NCBI RefSeq assembly: GCF_002257585.1
Contig: NZ_CP022743.1
Coordinates: forward strand, 2,666,001 to 2,730,000
Length of the DNA: 64,000 bases
Source: Mucilaginibacter xinganensis
GTDB lineage: Bacteria; Bacteroidota; Bacteroidia; Sphingobacteriales; Sphingobacteriaceae
Direction of reading: 5' to 3'
The notes under the pieces are model-generated. The model was not told the origin of the DNA, did no database searches, and saw only the letters and a list, made by a program, of their open reading frames with translations. Every line of letters begins with the position of its first letter. The stretch's first letter is position 1. Both the position numbers and the translations under genes were made by a program. Shown here piece after piece: positions 43,379 through 51,114 of the stretch.

Positions 43379-43416
43379 AGCGGCATATTTCTTAGGAAGT
43401 ATGCCGCTTTTTTATT
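43379..43416 (+). terminator. Strong terminator ahead of fibre-like gene
   Basis: AGCGGCATA (43379-43387) pairs with TATGCCGCT (43400-43408) across a 12-base loop, followed by a T tract. It ends the tail operon 12 bases before the next start at 43428. Confidence 0.8.
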
Positions 43417-43427
43417 TAAAAATCAAC

Positions 43428-46259
43428 ATGAAAAAACTCCTTATCATCCTGCTATTATTAGCCAGCTTTATCACTACAAAAGCCCAGGTAACCCCACAGT
43501 GGAAAGCTTTAAACGGGGGCATCCTGAATTTCTATCCTGGTAAATCTCCAAGTGGTTACGATTCATTAATGTATCTAAGCTACCTACGAACATATTTCGG
43601 AAATACTTTTGTTACCAAAAAATATTTGTTTGGAAATAACGGATTAGTGCAAATGGGCGACACATTGACCAGCAAAGCATGGATTGCACTTGATACCGTA
43701 AATAAAAGAATTGATGCACAAACTATAGGAGATAGTACAATAAGTGGCTTTACTTCTTTTGTTGGAGGCTTGTCTTTATTTCAAACTGATATACCCAGCG
43801 GACTTGGTAAAACTATAAACTTTTATCCAGGCAATAGGAGTATTGTTATATCAAATAATTATAATAAAGGGATGCAGTATGATGTGCATCCAACTTTTTT
43901 AGATACGTTGCAGATACCTGATATTGCTTATATAAACCATTTACGAGGAATTGACAGCGCGAAAATATACAGCGGTAATCATACGTATACTGGCACTAAC
44001 ACTTATAACGGGCGCTCTTATTTTAACTCTGACCCTTATTTCTATAATGGGTTACGAATGAAAACAGCAGGTGGCATTTACATGGATGATGGAACGGACA
44101 TTGTTTTTTCACCTTCCGGATACGCCTTACAAGGTGGAGCAGAGGGATATTTTGCAATATTTAATAACACTCATGCAAGTGGTATTCAGTTGCTTGCTGA
44201 TAAAAGCATTTTAAATGGTAATAATGAAAAATTACTTACTGAAAATGCGGCTAATAGCATCTATGGCGTATCAAAACGAAGGTTAGGCACTATCTATAAC
44301 ATAATCCCCAACACCGCTAATTCAGCCTTATATACTACGGTAGGTAGCGGTACAACTTGGACTTACAGTACTACAGGCCTGACAACATCAGGCGGTGATG
44401 GTACCGTTGCAAATCAAATTAGATATAATAAATGGTGGACTAATGCCAGCTACTATGAAAGGTGTGCGAAATTTATTTCTACGACAGCCGGTTCAGGAAT
44501 TGGCGTTTCTTTATGGTCGTTGTCAGCTTCTGCAACCTTGTCGGCCAAGATAAATACATCAACCGGCACGTTAACACTGGAGGTTTACCGGTCAGGTACA
44601 ACTACCACAAAGGCTACATCTGCCAGTAACTTAACGATTGCTACCGGTGATACGATACAGGTAAAAATGGTTAGGTCTATGGCTAACTTTTTTGTTACTG
44701 CCAAAGATTTAAATACCGGTGTTACCGTATTTATTAATTATACAGATCCATATACCAGCGGCACGGTTCAAACCTCATGGAGCGCAGCTGAATCAACTAT
44801 TGTCCATTACGGTGGCTCTCAAAAGATCATAAATGATTCTTATGTAGTAAATAATATTGTAGGTAATGACATTGTTTGGTATGGTAACAGCATCGGTGCC
44901 GGGTTATCTTCCGGTTCTGCCAACAATGCAGCGGCAAATATTATCGGCGCAAATACTAACGACAATGTGAACGTTATCGCCGGTGGCAGCAACCGGACTT
45001 CTGATTTTATATTATTGGAGAATGAGATCAAGGCATTGAGGCCACGAATGATTTTTTATACCGATGGTATTAATGATATTATAAACTCAATTTCACAGGA
45101 CACTACCAATGCGCATATAACTGCTGCTGCACAGTTCGCAAGAACTAACGGTATCCAGATGGTTTTTAATTCTATCCTACCGGTTGGGCCTACTTATGGT
45201 GGTGCTTCAAATGCTACCTACCAGGCTGCAATCATAACAACTAATACTTTTGAAACTACTATAACGGACGCTATACAGGTAAATACCTATAGCTCGGTTC
45301 TAAATGCTTCTACTTCTGCCCTTGATCCGCTTTTTGATAGTGGTGATCAATTACACCCAAACAGGTTTGGGCAGGAAGCTGTAGCAGCATTTAATTCAGC
45401 ATTTGTAAAGGGGTTATCAAATTTGGGAAATTTATCTCATAACGACCCTAACGGATGGAAAGTAATAGCGCAAGTTGGAGCACGCGGTGGAGTAACCGTA
45501 CAAAATGTTTCACAAAATGCGTCAGCGTCTTCAATGTTTACAACTTTGAGTAATAATAATGTTACACAAGTTACTTTCGGTATAGCCTCATCAACAAGTG
45601 CTTCAAACTATAATGATGCAAACGGAGCATTAAATGGACAAGCGATAACAACAGGTAAAAAGTTTTTTGTCGGAGCAACAGATAAAATTATTATTAATGT
45701 AGGCTCTACTGCAGTTTCCGCCAATAACAAAGCTTATTTTACCGCTACTGCCGGAATTAAATTGAATGATAAGGTTTGGTTTGGGGATACTACAGGTACT
45801 GCTACAGCTCGTGTTCATATCAAAGCCGGTACAGCAACTGCAACAACGGCCCCTTTGAAATTTGGAACCGGAGGCGTAGTGCTTACCACTCCTGAAGCAT
45901 TGGCTTTAGAATCAACCAACACCAGTTTATTTTTTACAGATACAGTAAGCACTGTTAAAACAAGGCGGGAAATAATATTGGATACCAAAACACAAACCTT
46001 AACCGCAAAAACATTTGGAGATAAGCTTCGTGTATCAACCTCCGTCAACGCCGGGGCGGGAACCGCTACGCTGGTTGCAGGAACGGTTACCGTTTCCAAT
46101 ACATCAGCAGTAACTGGAAGCCTGATATTTTTTACCAGGATCAGTAACGGGGGCACAGTCGGAACCTTATCCTACACCATCAGCAATGGCGTATCATTTA
46201 CCATTAATTCAACGAGCGCCACTGATACGAGTACAATTGGCTATACCATCATAAACTAA
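43428..46259 (+). CDS. SGNH/GDSL hydrolase fibre-like protein with signal peptide
   Basis: A 943-residue protein. MKKLLIILLLLASFITTKAQ is a clear Sec signal peptide. Residues 20-470 are beta-rich and fibre-like. Residues 485-680 hold an SGNH hydrolase: block I WYGNSIGAG (GNS instead of GDS), block III GINDI and block V DQLHPNRFG with the Asp-His pair. The C-terminal 270 residues are Thr/Ala/Ser-rich beta repeats. An esterase or deacetylase acting on surface polysaccharide is likely. A signal peptide on a virion fibre is odd; it may instead be exported by the lysogen. Confidence 0.75.
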   Translation: MKKLLIILLLLASFITTKAQVTPQWKALNGGILNFYPGKSPSGYDSLMYLSYLRTYFGNTFVTKKYLFGNNGLVQMGDTLTSKAWIALDTVNKRIDAQTIGDSTISGFTSFVGGLSLFQTDIPSGLGKTINFYPGNRSIVISNNYNKGMQYDVHPTFLDTLQIPDIAYINHLRGIDSAKIYSGNHTYTGTNTYNGRSYFNSDPYFYNGLRMKTAGGIYMDDGTDIVFSPSGYALQGGAEGYFAIFNNTHASGIQLLADKSILNGNNEKLLTENAANSIYGVSKRRLGTIYNIIPNTANSALYTTVGSGTTWTYSTTGLTTSGGDGTVANQIRYNKWWTNASYYERCAKFISTTAGSGIGVSLWSLSASATLSAKINTSTGTLTLEVYRSGTTTTKATSASNLTIATGDTIQVKMVRSMANFFVTAKDLNTGVTVFINYTDPYTSGTVQTSWSAAESTIVHYGGSQKIINDSYVVNNIVGNDIVWYGNSIGAGLSSGSANNAAANIIGANTNDNVNVIAGGSNRTSDFILLENEIKALRPRMIFYTDGINDIINSISQDTTNAHITAAAQFARTNGIQMVFNSILPVGPTYGGASNATYQAAIITTNTFETTITDAIQVNTYSSVLNASTSALDPLFDSGDQLHPNRFGQEAVAAFNSAFVKGLSNLGNLSHNDPNGWKVIAQVGARGGVTVQNVSQNASASSMFTTLSNNNVTQVTFGIASSTSASNYNDANGALNGQAITTGKKFFVGATDKIIINVGSTAVSANNKAYFTATAGIKLNDKVWFGDTTGTATARVHIKAGTATATTAPLKFGTGGVVLTTPEALALESTNTSLFFTDTVSTVKTRREIILDTKTQTLTAKTFGDKLRVSTSVNAGAGTATLVAGTVTVSNTSAVTGSLIFFTRISNGGTVGTLSYTISNGVSFTINSTSATDTSTIGYTIIN

Positions 46260-46276
46260 CGACAACTAACAATAAT

Positions 46277-46648
46277 ATGAAAAAATCAATCATCATCATT
46301 GCATTAACATCAATCAGCACATTATCATTTGCCCAAATAAAACCGGCCAAACAAAAACTGGCATCGGTTGCACCGAGGGCAGATCAATCTGCACCAACTG
46401 ACACTTTTAAATTTACTTATAAAGAAGCGCAATTGCTTTTTCAATTATTGGAAGAGGACAAAAAGTTTTATTCGTTGTCCGATGATATCTCAGGCCGTAA
46501 AGCCAATACTATTTATATCCCCAGGGCTGATTCAATTCAGCGGATCCTCGCAAGACAGGCCAAAACATTTGAGGATAAAAGACAACTGGCCACCAAGCTG
46601 AAAGCCATCGCAGACAGCGCAAAAAAAGCTACCATTAAAAAACCATAA
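46277..46648 (+). CDS. Exported small helical protein
   Basis: A 123-residue protein with a signal peptide (MKKSIIIIALTSISTLSFAQ, cleavage after AQ) and a charged helical mature part ending in a lysine-rich tail. No family recognised. It follows the fibre-like gene and precedes the lysis genes, so a role at the envelope during lysis is possible but not shown. Confidence 0.6.
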   Translation: MKKSIIIIALTSISTLSFAQIKPAKQKLASVAPRADQSAPTDTFKFTYKEAQLLFQLLEEDKKFYSLSDDISGRKANTIYIPRADSIQRILARQAKTFEDKRQLATKLKAIADSAKKATIKKP

Positions 46649-46650
46649 CC

Positions 46651-46821
46651 ATGGATTTAACAATTGATCAACAAGCAACACAACGGGAACTGGAAAGGCT
46701 TACAGCGAAGTACCCCGATCAAACATCACCATTATTAACATCTATAACTATAATGATGGCTGATGTTAATGAGCAAGAAGCAGAATCAATAAAGGAAATA
46801 TTAAGTAAAAAGGATAAATAA
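46651..46821 (+). CDS. Small hypothetical protein in lysis operon
   Basis: A 56-residue helical ORF (MDLTIDQQATQRELERLTAK at its start) between an exported protein and a membrane protein. No membrane segment, no recognised motif. Spacing of two and eight bases to its neighbours supports translation. Confidence 0.5.
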   Translation: MDLTIDQQATQRELERLTAKYPDQTSPLLTSITIMMADVNEQEAESIKEILSKKDK

Positions 46822-46829
46822 TAATTACG

Positions 46830-47246
46830 ATGAGCGAGCAGGAAAGGTTGTCGCAAATAGGGCGCGATGTTGGTTTTATTAAAAGATGGTGGCCGGTCGC
46901 TACGGTAGCTGGAGCAATACTATATGCAACGGTAACTACTGTTCATAATGCTACCTCTACCTACGATACCAAAATAGCCAAGAAAGAAGACATTGCAGCT
47001 TTAAGCAAACAGGTATCAGACCTAAGTATACAGGTATCACATTTAGCTGATGATTTCAAAGGTTATAAAACCACAAAGGTTAGTGATAGCGTGGAACGGG
47101 TTGCAATCAAAAAAGACCTTGAAAGCCACAAAAGGTTTGTAAATGGTCAATTGGAAAAAATAGCTAAAAGATTGGCCTCTTTTCGGTTTTATACTGAAAA
47201 AAGAATAGGAGATAAACTGATAGTTACACCCGTAAGCAGAAATTAA
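46830..47246 (+). CDS. Membrane-anchored coiled-coil protein (spanin-like)
   Basis: A 138-residue protein with one membrane helix (residues 21-39, WPVATVAGAILYATVTTVH) followed by a coiled coil (about residues 50-115: IAALSKQVSDLSIQVSHLAD). This topology is that of an inner-membrane spanin subunit or a pinholin-like accessory. It lies directly upstream of the endolysin. Spanin identity is inferred, and no separate lipoprotein partner is seen. Confidence 0.55.
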   Translation: MSEQERLSQIGRDVGFIKRWWPVATVAGAILYATVTTVHNATSTYDTKIAKKEDIAALSKQVSDLSIQVSHLADDFKGYKTTKVSDSVERVAIKKDLESHKRFVNGQLEKIAKRLASFRFYTEKRIGDKLIVTPVSRN

Positions 47247-47247
47247 C

Positions 47248-47769
47248 ATGGATACGACACACCTTTTCAACTCGCTTAGAAAATTATCAGGATCACTTTC
47301 ACAAATACAGGTTGATAGTGTAAACGCCATTTTAAGCGCCTGTAACAAACACTTAGTTACTGACAGTAATCAGATAGCCTATATTTTAGCTACAGCTTAC
47401 CATGAAGCACGCTTAAAGCCTGTAAGGGAAGTAGGGTTAGGTCGTGGGCATCCTTACGGTGTTCCTGATAAAGAAACCAATCAAACTTATTATGGCCGTG
47501 GATTCTGCCAAATAACATGGAAGGGGAATTATCAAACCTTTGCAAAACTGTTAAATATTGACCTCGTACATAATCCTGATTTAGCTATGCAACCTGAATC
47601 AGCAGCCGAAATAATTGTAATAGGCATGAAAAACGGATTATTCACCGGTAAGAAGTTAAGCAACTATTTCACCGCGACAATAAACGACCCGATAAATGCA
47701 AGGCGCATAATTAACGGTACTGATAAAGCCGAACTTATATCCACTTATTACAAAACAATTTTAACATGA
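47248..47769 (+). CDS. Endolysin, glycoside hydrolase family 19
   Basis: A 173-residue muramidase/chitinase-like lysozyme. YILATAYHEARLKPVRE (about residues 46-62) includes the catalytic Glu of GH19, and YYGRGFCQITWKGNYQTF (about 83-100) is the family signature (YYGRG..QLTG..NY). It has no signal peptide, so it needs a holin. It degrades peptidoglycan at the end of the lytic cycle. Overlap of four bases with the holin-like gene. Confidence 0.9.
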   Translation: MDTTHLFNSLRKLSGSLSQIQVDSVNAILSACNKHLVTDSNQIAYILATAYHEARLKPVREVGLGRGHPYGVPDKETNQTYYGRGFCQITWKGNYQTFAKLLNIDLVHNPDLAMQPESAAEIIVIGMKNGLFTGKKLSNYFTATINDPINARRIINGTDKAELISTYYKTILT

Positions 47770-48032
47770 AAGCTTCATCATTTTTAAACGACAATATTAA
47801 GCCAATACTTTGTTTGGTGATTGTTGTAATCGGTTTTAGTTACTTCTTTATGTGTTCAATAAGGAATATTAAACCTGATCCTCAAATATTAATAGCATTT
47901 GTATCGGCTATATCTACGTCAACCGGGTATTACTTTGGAAGCTCTCAAGGCAGTAGCAAAAAGGATGATATCATAGCGGATGCCTCTAACAAGCCGATAG
48001 TTAATGCTGCTGACACTGTTAATGTAAAGTAA
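47766..48032 (+). CDS. Holin-like membrane protein
   Basis: An 88-residue protein with two predicted membrane segments (about residues 12-31, ILCLVIVVIGFSYFFMCSI; and 39-58, ILIAFVSAISTSTGYYFGSS) and a charged C-terminus. Size, topology and overlap with the endolysin gene fit a class II-like holin. Confidence 0.7.
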   Translation: MKASSFLNDNIKPILCLVIVVIGFSYFFMCSIRNIKPDPQILIAFVSAISTSTGYYFGSSQGSSKKDDIIADASNKPIVNAADTVNVK

Positions 48033-48063: not shown

Positions 48064-48513
48064 ATGAGTTTAAAAACGTTTTTAGAAAAACTATTACCGT
48101 TCCTGTTTAATGCAGTTGAGCGCGCTTACGATCAATTACCACAATCCGAAAAAGATGCTTTAGTTAAATCGGGGCAATTTGGGCAAATTATCAAAACGGA
48201 GTTAACAAATGGCTATAATGCCATTGTTAAAGTATCGGCTGATAAATTAGGTTTGAAGCCTGCCGAAGTTGATTTATTATTAACTTCCCTTGCAAAGGAA
48301 ATGAGTATTAATATCTCAAAACCAAGTGATATTATTGATGCATTGCAATCAAAAGTTAATGCAGGATTAACCAACAGCGGATGGGATAGCCTTTGGACAA
48401 CCATTTCGGGGCAATTGGCTATCATTGTTACAGGTGGTTCTGTTAGCTGGCCTACATTGGCATTAGGATTAATTGAATTCGTATATCAGAAGTTTATCCA
48501 GCCAAAAGCTTAA
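48064..48513 (+). CDS. Hypothetical helical protein after holin
   Basis: A 149-residue helical protein (VERAYDQLPQSEKDALVKSGQFG) with a moderately hydrophobic end (ISGQLAIIVTGGSVSWPTLALGLIEFVY). I recognise no family, though similar proteins accompany lysis genes in Bacteroidota phages. It could be an antiholin or a cell-envelope factor; neither is shown by sequence. Confidence 0.55.
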   Translation: MSLKTFLEKLLPFLFNAVERAYDQLPQSEKDALVKSGQFGQIIKTELTNGYNAIVKVSADKLGLKPAEVDLLLTSLAKEMSINISKPSDIIDALQSKVNAGLTNSGWDSLWTTISGQLAIIVTGGSVSWPTLALGLIEFVYQKFIQPKA

Positions 48514-48524
48514 ATTAAAGCCGA

Positions 48525-49181
48525 ATGAAAAATATATTATTGATCATTTTCGTGCTATCAGGAATATGTTCCTTGCATGCACAAACGCTAATTAACTGCA
48601 AAGTTGATACAACTGGAGGTTATATAAGCGTATTTGATACTGTAAAGTATAACCCTATTTGTAATTATGAGGTATTGACAAAAGCTCACCTGGATAATCA
48701 TTCTGCAAACAACAGGGATACCATTTCATTTTTTCCTCATAAAATAGACGTGCTTTATAAAAAATCTGGTTATAGCCGTGGGCATTGTCTTCCCTTTGAA
48801 GATTTAGCCTATTCGTATGTATCTGCAAAAGCAAGCATGAATGAAAAGAGAAACCTTGCACCACAACCTCAAAATGAGAATATAGGCACTAAATTAGCTT
48901 GTGAAGACACCTGCAGGTTACTGGCTAATCAACAAGGCTCAATACAGGTATTTGGTGGCACATGGGGGACTTATGGCAGTATGAAAGGAATAAATATTCC
49001 GGAGGCCTACTGGACAATGATTATTGATTCAGATAATAACGCAATCTGTTGGTGGCTACCTACCCATGGAGGTAAAATAGGTTATCATGATTTAGGTGCG
49101 TGCAGAATAACTCAAGAATCATTAGAAGCTAAATTGGGTTTTGAACCGCCATTGGTGATATTTAAACAGCAAATAAGATAG
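48525..49181 (+). CDS. Exported DNA/RNA non-specific endonuclease (NUC type)
   Basis: A 218-residue nuclease with a signal peptide (MKNILLIIFVLSGICSLHAQ). GYSRGHCLPFEDL (about residues 85-97) is the DRGH-type catalytic motif of beta-beta-alpha-Me nucleases (here SRGH), and KRNLAPQPQNENIG (about 110-123) supplies the metal-binding Asn of the N.xPQ...N.g pattern. Such enzymes (Serratia nuclease, EndoG, NucA) cut DNA and RNA outside the cytoplasm. It is the last gene of the lysis operon and is followed by a strong terminator. Leading Asp replaced by Ser is a variation seen in some homologues. Confidence 0.75.
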   Translation: MKNILLIIFVLSGICSLHAQTLINCKVDTTGGYISVFDTVKYNPICNYEVLTKAHLDNHSANNRDTISFFPHKIDVLYKKSGYSRGHCLPFEDLAYSYVSAKASMNEKRNLAPQPQNENIGTKLACEDTCRLLANQQGSIQVFGGTWGTYGSMKGINIPEAYWTMIIDSDNNAICWWLPTHGGKIGYHDLGACRITQESLEAKLGFEPPLVIFKQQIR

Positions 49182-49205
49182 TTTTCGTTTAGTTGGTTTA
49201 GTTTG

Positions 49206-49234
49206 GCCCTGTAAGAGATTACAGGGCTTTTTTA
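49206..49234 (+). terminator. Terminator of late operon
   Basis: GCCCTGTAA (49206-49214) pairs with TTACAGGGC (49219-49227) across a GAGA tetraloop, followed by a T tract. It closes the late operon. Confidence 0.9.
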
Positions 49235-49446
49235 TTTTCAATTATTTCACCAATTGCCTGAATGTCATCTAACGTCAAAAGGTTTGTACTGGAATGCAGA
49301 TGCCATTCACCATTGACCTTTATAATGTCCCCGTAGTAATATTTATCTATCAGTAGCTGGTAACCGCCTGAACCCTTATTCACATCAATAATGGTTACCT
49401 GCTTTATTTCATCCCCAAAGCTGGCTGAAAAACTAATACGCTCCAT
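49219..49446 (-). CDS. Small hypothetical protein next to integrase
   Basis: A 75-residue beta-rich protein (SGGYQLLIDKYYYGDIIKVNGEWHLH). Its stop codon lies within the downstream stem of the convergent terminator. It is the gene after the integrase on the minus strand, 21 bases on, so a cotranscribed directionality or accessory factor is possible; no HTH seen. Confidence 0.55.
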   Translation of the reverse strand: MERISFSASFGDEIKQVTIIDVNKGSGGYQLLIDKYYYGDIIKVNGEWHLHSSTNLLTLDDIQAIGEIIENKKAL

Positions 49447-49467: not shown

Positions 49468-50643
49468 TTAAATCTTTCGACCCTTATCATAAACACGACC
49501 GCGCTCAACGCGCCCCAGGCTTTTTAAATACTTCATGGTTACATAAGGGTCAGCATGTCTGAAAAGTACCTGAATATCCCGGATAGTAGCGCCATCATCG
49601 AACAGATCACATGCTCTCTTTGACTTGAAACAATAAAGGCCGTATTCATCACCAAAGCCAAAGTGTTTTTTAACAGGCCTGAACCTACGGGCAAAATTAT
49701 CATTGCCAACCCTCACAGGTCCCGGTTTATCGTTCCTGCCAAATAAATACCAGTCGCCTGGGTATTGCTCCAAATTCAGGCTCTCTAATAATTCTAAAAA
49801 TTCAGGATAAATAGGGACGGGTTGCCTAACCTTATTTTTAGCTATTTCAGCCTCTACAAAGAATAGTTTATTTTTAAGATCAAAGTCACCACATTTTAAA
49901 TAAGGCAACTCTGCTTCGTTCCTTAGGCCTGTATAGTAGATAACCTGGCACACAAGCCATAGGTAAGGATCCGGGGCATGTGTTTCATCACCTATTAGCA
50001 GGTGTTTCTTTATCGCGTTAAATTCTTCGTCGGTGTAAGCAATATTTCCTTTTTCTTCTACTGGGTCACGGGTTATTTTGGCAGCGGGGTTGCGCTCCAG
50101 GTAATCATCATAGTTATCCATATAATGATTAAAGAACCTGCGAATGTCATTTAAATAGTGGTTGACTGTTTTACCTGATTTGATATTTCGCTTTTTAATG
50201 CTTTCTACAAAGTCAAAGATGTGCTGCTTTTTGATCTCGTTAATATCGTAGCCGGCAAAGCCTGAACTTTCAAGCCAACCTTTAAAAACGGTTAACTCTA
50301 TTCGGTACTTTCTTTTGGTATTATCCCTGAGCTTCCCATTTGCTATGAACTCTAAAAATAAATCAATGCAATGAATGATGTTTTTATTTTCGTCGGTCGC
50401 TGTTGGTAAAATGTCAAATGGACTGCCGCCTTTTTCAAGCCATTCATTATAGGCTACTACATAAGCATTTGCTAAGTCGTAACGTGAAGCCCTTGTATTT
50501 TCCTGATTTATTTCTTTGAATACTTTAAAGCGATCAAACTTTTTTGTTTCCGGGTTAAGATAGGAGTACTTAACATACCATTGTTTTTTAAGATCACCTC
50601 CAGCGTCGTAAAGAGTAGCTTTTTTGTAATTTAATCGTAACAT
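49468..50643 (-). CDS. int: Tyrosine-family integrase
   Basis: A 391-residue recombinase of the Bacteroidota phage/transposon type, with an N-terminal arm-binding region, SAM-like core-binding domain (about residues 105-200) and catalytic domain. YYTGLRNEAELPYLK (about 235-249) has the first Arg, FKSKRACDLF (about 343-352) the second Arg with Lys in place of the usual His of HxxR, RHADPYVTMKYLKS (about 365-378) the His and nucleophile Tyr. It faces away from ssrA, whose 3' end lies about 105 bases from the int start. It inserts and excises the prophage at ssrA. Confidence 0.93.
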   Translation of the reverse strand: MLRLNYKKATLYDAGGDLKKQWYVKYSYLNPETKKFDRFKVFKEINQENTRASRYDLANAYVVAYNEWLEKGGSPFDILPTATDENKNIIHCIDLFLEFIANGKLRDNTKRKYRIELTVFKGWLESSGFAGYDINEIKKQHIFDFVESIKKRNIKSGKTVNHYLNDIRRFFNHYMDNYDDYLERNPAAKITRDPVEEKGNIAYTDEEFNAIKKHLLIGDETHAPDPYLWLVCQVIYYTGLRNEAELPYLKCGDFDLKNKLFFVEAEIAKNKVRQPVPIYPEFLELLESLNLEQYPGDWYLFGRNDKPGPVRVGNDNFARRFRPVKKHFGFGDEYGLYCFKSKRACDLFDDGATIRDIQVLFRHADPYVTMKYLKSLGRVERGRVYDKGRKI

Positions 50644-50742: not shown

Positions 50743-50748
50743 TAAAAG

Positions 50749-51114
50749 TGGAGCCGGAGGGATTCGAACCCTCGTCCAAACATGGTATAAGGTAAGCTTT
50801 CTACATGCTTAGCTTCTGTTTAATTGTAGGGAAGGGGAAGGCCAGTTGCTTGCCTGTACCGTCTTCCTTAGGTGCTTTATCTCGCCCGCTATGCACACCT
50901 TAAGCAGGCCAGTTCCATCTTTCGATGCCCCTGGTGCCGATCCGATGAAACGGAAAACCGGCGGGACAAAAGCTAGCTAAATTCTAAATTAAGCAGCTAA
51001 GGCGTAGTTATTTTCGCCATTTGTGATTTTGAGTGTTCTGATTAGAGCGCTAATTCACCCAACGCGCTGCATGCTTACTTACTTATCTCCATCCTGTCAA
51101 TTCCGGTCGACCCC
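50749..51114 (-). ncRNA. ssrA: tmRNA (ssrA), prophage attachment site
   Basis: A 366-nt transfer-messenger RNA. The 5' GGGGTCG (51114-51108) pairs with the 3' CGGCTCC; the 3' end has the T arm GGGTTCGAATCCC and discriminator A at 50749. The CCA end is not encoded. The tag frame (51018 down to 50989) reads GENNYALAA then TAA, a Bacteroidota tag. It releases stalled ribosomes with SmpB. The phage integrase abuts its 3' end, so the 3' part (from about 50749 to 50780) is probably the duplicated att core. Confidence 0.95.

Follow-up and report, generated by a model that had tools for sequence, protein, structure and literature searches.

By its sequence, the last late gene of a temperate phage integrated in Mucilaginibacter encodes a nuclease of the PF01223 family that retains the catalytic His, Asn, Glu and Arg, opens with a signal-like N-terminus, lies in the late block and has relatives that recur near lysis genes. 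We see even chances that this gene, at 48525-49181 (+) of the window (the whole 64,000-nucleotide stretch of DNA analysed here), specifies a late-made, Sec-exported nuclease that would wait in the periplasm and, once lysis sets it free, digest the nucleic acid of the burst.

Results

The open reading frame runs from an ATG over exactly 48525-49181 (+) and encodes 218 amino acids. It scores 62.9 bits against PF01223 (curated cut-off 23; E = 4.5e-17, Pfam), matches PHROG 14168, named 'nuclease' (E = 3e-8), and aligns with solved sequences of Anabaena NucA (E = 6.7e-7 and 7.9e-7) and, weakly, with the Serratia nuclease (E = 0.022). Given these matches, we dismiss a chance open reading frame and regard 48525-49181 as a genuine gene for a putatively exported DNA/RNA non-specific endonuclease-like protein.

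The N-terminus, MKNILLIIFVLSGICSLHA followed by QT, reads as a stretch resembling a Sec signal peptide that ends in LHA before Gln (residues 1-19; 48525-48581, +). Kyte-Doolittle hydropathy, taken in 12-residue windows, peaks at 3.14 at residue 4, and Ala19 and Gln20 are invariant or nearly so among aligned relatives. Cleavage is likely before Gln20, which would leave a mature protein of about 199 amino acids, and by our reading the nuclease domain is followed by no secretion domain.

Alignment to NucA and the Serratia nuclease, together with spacing, places the sequence SRGH (Ser84-Arg85-Gly86-His87; 48774-48785, +) at the position of the family's DRGH motif, while spacing and conservation mark Asn119, Glu127 and Arg131 (48879-48917, +) as predicted metal-binding and catalytic positions. 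His87, Asn119, Glu127 and Arg131, as well as Gly86, are invariant among 20 aligned sequences. The catalytic His and the metal-binding Asn, Glu and Arg are thus present at the near-canonical spacing of PF01223: from the Asn of the N..PQ motif onward the spacing is that of the Serratia nuclease, and the distance from His to Asn is two residues off. The complete DRGH motif is absent, Ser84 replacing its Asp. Both matched solved Anabaena NucA chains carry Ala at this place, which we take to be an engineered form of low activity, and for this reason an activity below the family norm is possible for the window nuclease. DRGH is usual for PF01223 nucleases, yet not required; human EXOG, reported to be an active nuclease, has SRGH where EndoG has DRGH (PMC6547421), and SRGH in the window protein would therefore be compatible with activity.

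An AlphaFold model built with a 20-row alignment was of moderate confidence (mean pLDDT 64.9), and its poorest stretches, residues 64-84 and 106-118, lie around the active site. The top Foldseek matches of this model of pLDDT 64.9 were EndoG (best E = 5.3e-6), EXOG, NucA and the Serratia nuclease, with E-values from 5e-6 to 1.5e-4 and TM of about 0.5; autotaxin chains were likewise among the matches. In a viral structure library, three proteins matched at E <= 0.001, one of them named DNA/RNA endonuclease G.

The gene belongs to a prophage of about 53.9 kb that sits in the tmRNA gene (50748-51114). A 22-bp att core lies at the tmRNA 3' end (50747-50768), and its second copy is found 53.9 kb leftward, outside the window (locus L018, 16869-16890); a search for direct repeats inside the window did not reveal the left att site, because the left end of the prophage lies 3.1 kb beyond the window. 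Just past that left site, a 161-amino acid open reading frame (L018, 16135-16620) looks by eye like the N-terminal portion of a tyrosine recombinase and is perhaps a remnant of an older integration. Integrase, terminase, portal, major head protein and a DnaB-type helicase are strongly recognised in the prophage, and a tape measure weakly. The integrase is of the tyrosine type (49468-50643, -; PF00589, E = 5.3e-8; PHROG 1, E = 3.3e-36).

The rightward late block ends in the order 43401-46259, 46277-46648, 46651-46821, 46830-47246, 47248-47769, 47766-48032, 48064-48513 and the nuclease, which starts 11 bp after the preceding open reading frame. The nuclease had been described as the last late gene, and this fits, because the next genes, 49219-49446 and the integrase, lie on the opposite strand; the late block also ends in a terminator-like hairpin with a 10-bp stem followed by a T-run (49205-49228, +), which carries weight by its place and stem alone, as the scan of the region found four hairpins against 3.9 expected from shuffles. 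From the end of the nuclease gene to the att core are 1566 bp, holding only the small open reading frame and the integrase. In the late block, on the same strand, no Bacteroidota-type promoter pattern occurred upstream of the nuclease; matches in the promoter scans were no more frequent than chance, and the scans are still compatible with a promoter within the neighbouring open reading frame.

The neighbours on the left form a lysis region. The endolysin is GH19-like (47248-47769, +), matching PHROG 181 (E = 4.6e-31) and PF00182 exactly at its cut-off (25.5 bits). It overlaps a short membrane-like protein that is a candidate holin (47766-48032, +) with no named family in Pfam or PHROG; of the two neighbours named in the original prediction, the endolysin is supported and the holin stays a candidate. 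A 149-amino acid protein of no Pfam family (48064-48513, +; best PHROG E = 0.044), for which a scan of IMG/VR returned no relatives, stands between candidate holin and nuclease, and a membrane-anchored coiled-coil-like protein with no family above cut-off precedes the endolysin (46830-47246, +). The other part of the prediction, that a temperate phage carries a gene for an exported nuclease of NUC type in its lysis region, is borne out in sequence by PF01223, PHROG 14168, the signal-like N-terminus and the att sites.

Exported-looking proteins number at least three among the last nine late open reading frames. One, of 123 amino acids (46277-46648), has a signal-like start and no family match. 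Another is the large tailspike-like frame 43401-46259, which ends in a K1-lyase_C domain; large late frames in tail-fibre position open with Sec-signal-like stretches in three different phages (this one, L028 602-2242 and L029 1300-2937). Signal peptides on tail proteins would be odd.

Relatives of the nuclease are distant, at 23-32% identity. Matches at E <= 1e-8 occurred in 14 of 399 sampled genomes of the family, its own included, and among these 399 nothing besides the window protein itself exceeded 36% local identity to it. A scan of genome contigs confirmed 16 loci, all from Mucilaginibacter except one from Pedobacter. Five of 50,697 records in a phage collection matched at E <= 0.01, and eight of 72,556 plasmids at E <= 1e-4. 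The exported PF01223-like proteins of Mucilaginibacter and Pedobacter (L090-L105) share 23-32% identity with the window nuclease, as well as the invariant His, Asn, Glu and Arg and Cys25; they differ in being mostly chromosomal, in having KGH instead of SRGH and in being about 30-50 residues longer. For most of the relatives from Mucilaginibacter genomes, we saw no lysis module around the gene. Two of KGH type (L023 and L027) stand, by eye, near genes resembling a conjugation cluster. The genome that harbours the prophage also holds a second PF01223 gene with a stronger match (E = 8.1e-49; G000:C1:2301898-2302554, -; locus L158), with DKGH and a lipoprotein-like, exported-looking start.

A scan of IMG/VR with the window nuclease alone found no relatives. 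With three alignments, seven contigs carrying a relative were found, two of them identical over 7,523 bases, so that six are non-redundant. In three of the six the relative lies within 2 kb of a peptidoglycan hydrolase: 308 bp from an endolysin 68% identical to that of the window (L028), 1285 bp from a GH25 gene (L088), and 1643 bp from a phage lysozyme, with DUF5675 on the other side (L085). The scanned neighbours in L084, L083 and L086 included no peptidoglycan hydrolase, and showed instead a Mu-Gam-like gene, Vsr with a cytosine methylase, and a helicase, respectively. Under uniform placement, at least three of six contigs would have a hydrolase this close with P = 0.022 for 2 kb and 0.052 for 3 kb, both computed post hoc; the clustering near viral lysis genes is suggestive only. 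Phage ends near lysis genes gather accessory genes of many kinds, which counts against a lysis role for the nuclease.

In L028 and L088 the motif Arg has become Tyr and the Asn of N..PQ has become Gly; L028 falls below the PF01223 cut-off and L088 has no Pfam match at E <= 0.01. These two copies may be inactive as nucleases, because catalytic residues are lost and the Pfam score is below cut-off or absent. A tree of 20 sequences unites the two with support 1.000 and separates them from the window nuclease, which lies, together with L090/L091 and the outgroup, on the other side of a branch of support 0.997; L085 takes a different position, weakly supported (0.225). Because L028 and L088 group apart from the window nuclease, the gene has probably entered lysis modules at least twice, perhaps three times, on separate occasions.

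Viewed from the endolysin, the picture is sparser. A core lysis gene would be regularly present in the lysis modules of related phages; among 55 viral loci whose endolysin is related, one, L028, held a nuclease relative in the stretch examined, and the nuclease is an accessory gene. A search for further exported nucleases beside the 55 endolysins, using a crude signal filter, kept 26 of 344 open reading frames, and by eye these held lipoprotein- or spanin-like frames and the L028 case only. Among bacterial genomes, 24 carry a related endolysin, the genome with the prophage included; a nuclease relative, known from 14 genomes, accompanies it in only some of them, and the two genes were found close together in the genome with the prophage and in another Mucilaginibacter genome (G116). 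In G116, at L146 8309-11474, 1.75 kb separate a relative without a Pfam match at E <= 0.01 from a GH19-like gene, and large repetitive open reading frames and an FtsK-type gene are nearby; we left this locus out of the phage lysis modules, the FtsK gene being close and none of the six open reading frames scanned being a recognised phage gene.

Discussion

In the reading that we favour, an accessory beta-beta-alpha-metal (His-Me finger) nuclease gene at the end of the late block would be transcribed together with the lysis genes, and Sec export would let its product fold in the periplasm, apart from the phage DNA in the cytoplasm. When the endolysin and its partners open the cell, the nuclease would be set free and would cut spilled DNA and RNA, and also free foreign nucleic acid. 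The phage could benefit through lower viscosity, through virions loosed from tangled chromosomes and through a supply of nucleotides. We infer the activity, the export, the late co-transcription, the retention in the periplasm until lysis and the benefit, retention because no secretion domain follows the nuclease domain. Among the functions offered in the original prediction, destruction of incoming DNA, lower viscosity at lysis and release of nucleotides, a role at lysis appears preferable to protection of the lysogen, because the nuclease sits in the late block.

The closest characterized proteins are the extracellular nucleases of Serratia and Anabaena type (PF01223; EndoG/EXOG superfamily), which the window protein resembles in Pfam match, the His/Asn/Glu/Arg set and its spacing, an exported-looking N-terminus and, tentatively, the fold of its moderate-confidence model, and from which it differs in SRGH for DRGH, a short mature form and its location in a prophage late block. 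The Serratia nuclease gene is itself chromosomal, and its regulator NucC is also linked to the holin and endolysin genes nucE and nucD. NucC is described as an activator from a cryptic prophage that controls the extracellular nuclease of Serratia marcescens (PMC2716549), which likewise ties a PF01223 nuclease to a phage late-type regulator; the window nuclease, in contrast, lies inside the phage.

By position, the nearest precedent comes from Streptococcus pyogenes, whose prophages are reported to carry the secreted DNases spd1, spd3, spd4, sda and sdn (PMC1949102, PMC4710455), in which a toxin or DNase gene lies with paratox next to attR, at the right-hand terminus (PMC6224593). The window gene, too, is a nuclease gene with a signal-like start at a prophage end near attR, a likeness of position and signal to Spd1, Spd3, Spd4, Sda and Sdn (PMC6224593, PMC1949102). 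The streptococcal genes belong to a Gram-positive human pathogen and are linked to paratox, whereas the window gene stands close against the lysis genes of a Bacteroidota phage. To say that a nuclease in this position has no known standard role was accordingly too strong, given the secreted DNases that S. pyogenes prophages are reported to carry at their right end (PMC6224593, PMC4710455). A nuclease of phage GBSV1 was set aside as a precedent, being an unrelated, DnaD-like replication protein (PMC2390534). In the literature that we searched on phage-encoded extracellular nucleases and Mucilaginibacter prophage nucleases, with subscription papers mostly outside its scope, we did not find the arrangement described in Bacteroidota. 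What is new is that a divergent nuclease with SRGH stands in the lysis module of a Bacteroidota phage; the prophage-borne secreted DNases of streptococci are known.

The streptococcal parallel also lends itself to lysogenic conversion, in which nuclease from lysogens, or from the few that lyse, would degrade extracellular DNA and thereby feed the population or loosen biofilm. In S. pyogenes, prophages carry secreted DNases and toxins at this end, beside attR (PMC6224593), strains cured of their phages reportedly secrete less DNase (PMC4710455), and NucM of Moraxella, a secreted PF01223 nuclease, is described as acting in DNA uptake and biofilm (PMC6384898). The relatives of the window nuclease are, moreover, mostly chromosomal accessory genes of Mucilaginibacter, some beside conjugation-type genes (L023, L027). 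We nevertheless consider conversion rather unlikely: the gene sits tightly within the late block, another PF01223 gene, already present in the host, scores higher and has an N-terminus that looks exported, and no separate upstream promoter was seen in scans that leave one possible.

Less probable still is that a periplasmic nuclease of the lysogen destroys incoming phage or plasmid DNA. The predicted export and predicted nuclease fold would suit such a barrier, but a late-block gene should be silent in the lysogen, and most tailed phages thread their DNA through both membranes in a channel.

The replacement of the DRGH Asp by Ser, at a place where both matched NucA chains have Ala, and the loss of further residues in L028 and L088 raise the question of whether the protein is a catalytically weak or inactive relic, or one that binds nucleic acid. 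We think this improbable, as His, Asn, Glu and Arg are all retained, the reading frame is open over 218 codons and human EXOG is reported active with SRGH (PMC6547421). Delivery with the phage particle is the most doubtful proposal: endo- and exonucleases are reported among the 63 particle-associated proteins of Yersinia phage YerA41 (PMC7354516), a PF01223 protein of which is annotated as phage-particle-associated in a GenBank note, and the tailspike-like late frame of the window also has a signal-like start, but the window nuclease seems to bear a signal peptide, its alignment with the relative in YerA41 spans 42% of its length at 30% identity, and that relative stands in another gene context.

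If our preferred reading, release of a stored nuclease at lysis, is correct, some phages would, besides bursting cells, use an exported enzyme to clear away the nucleic acid that is spilled, and in Bacteroidota this would bear on phage release, on gene transfer and on the DNA of biofilms. Prophage-borne secreted DNases, read as virulence factors in streptococci, would then extend to environmental Gram-negative bacteria, and this would suggest an older use of such enzymes that serves the phage. A wider generalization, which we put forward as an unlikely speculation, is that exported His-Me finger nucleases have been taken up time and again by phages of Bacteroidota to assist in lysis: stored in the periplasm and released with the virions to clear nucleic acid from the burst, they would form a further functional class within lysis modules, next to holin, endolysin and spanin.
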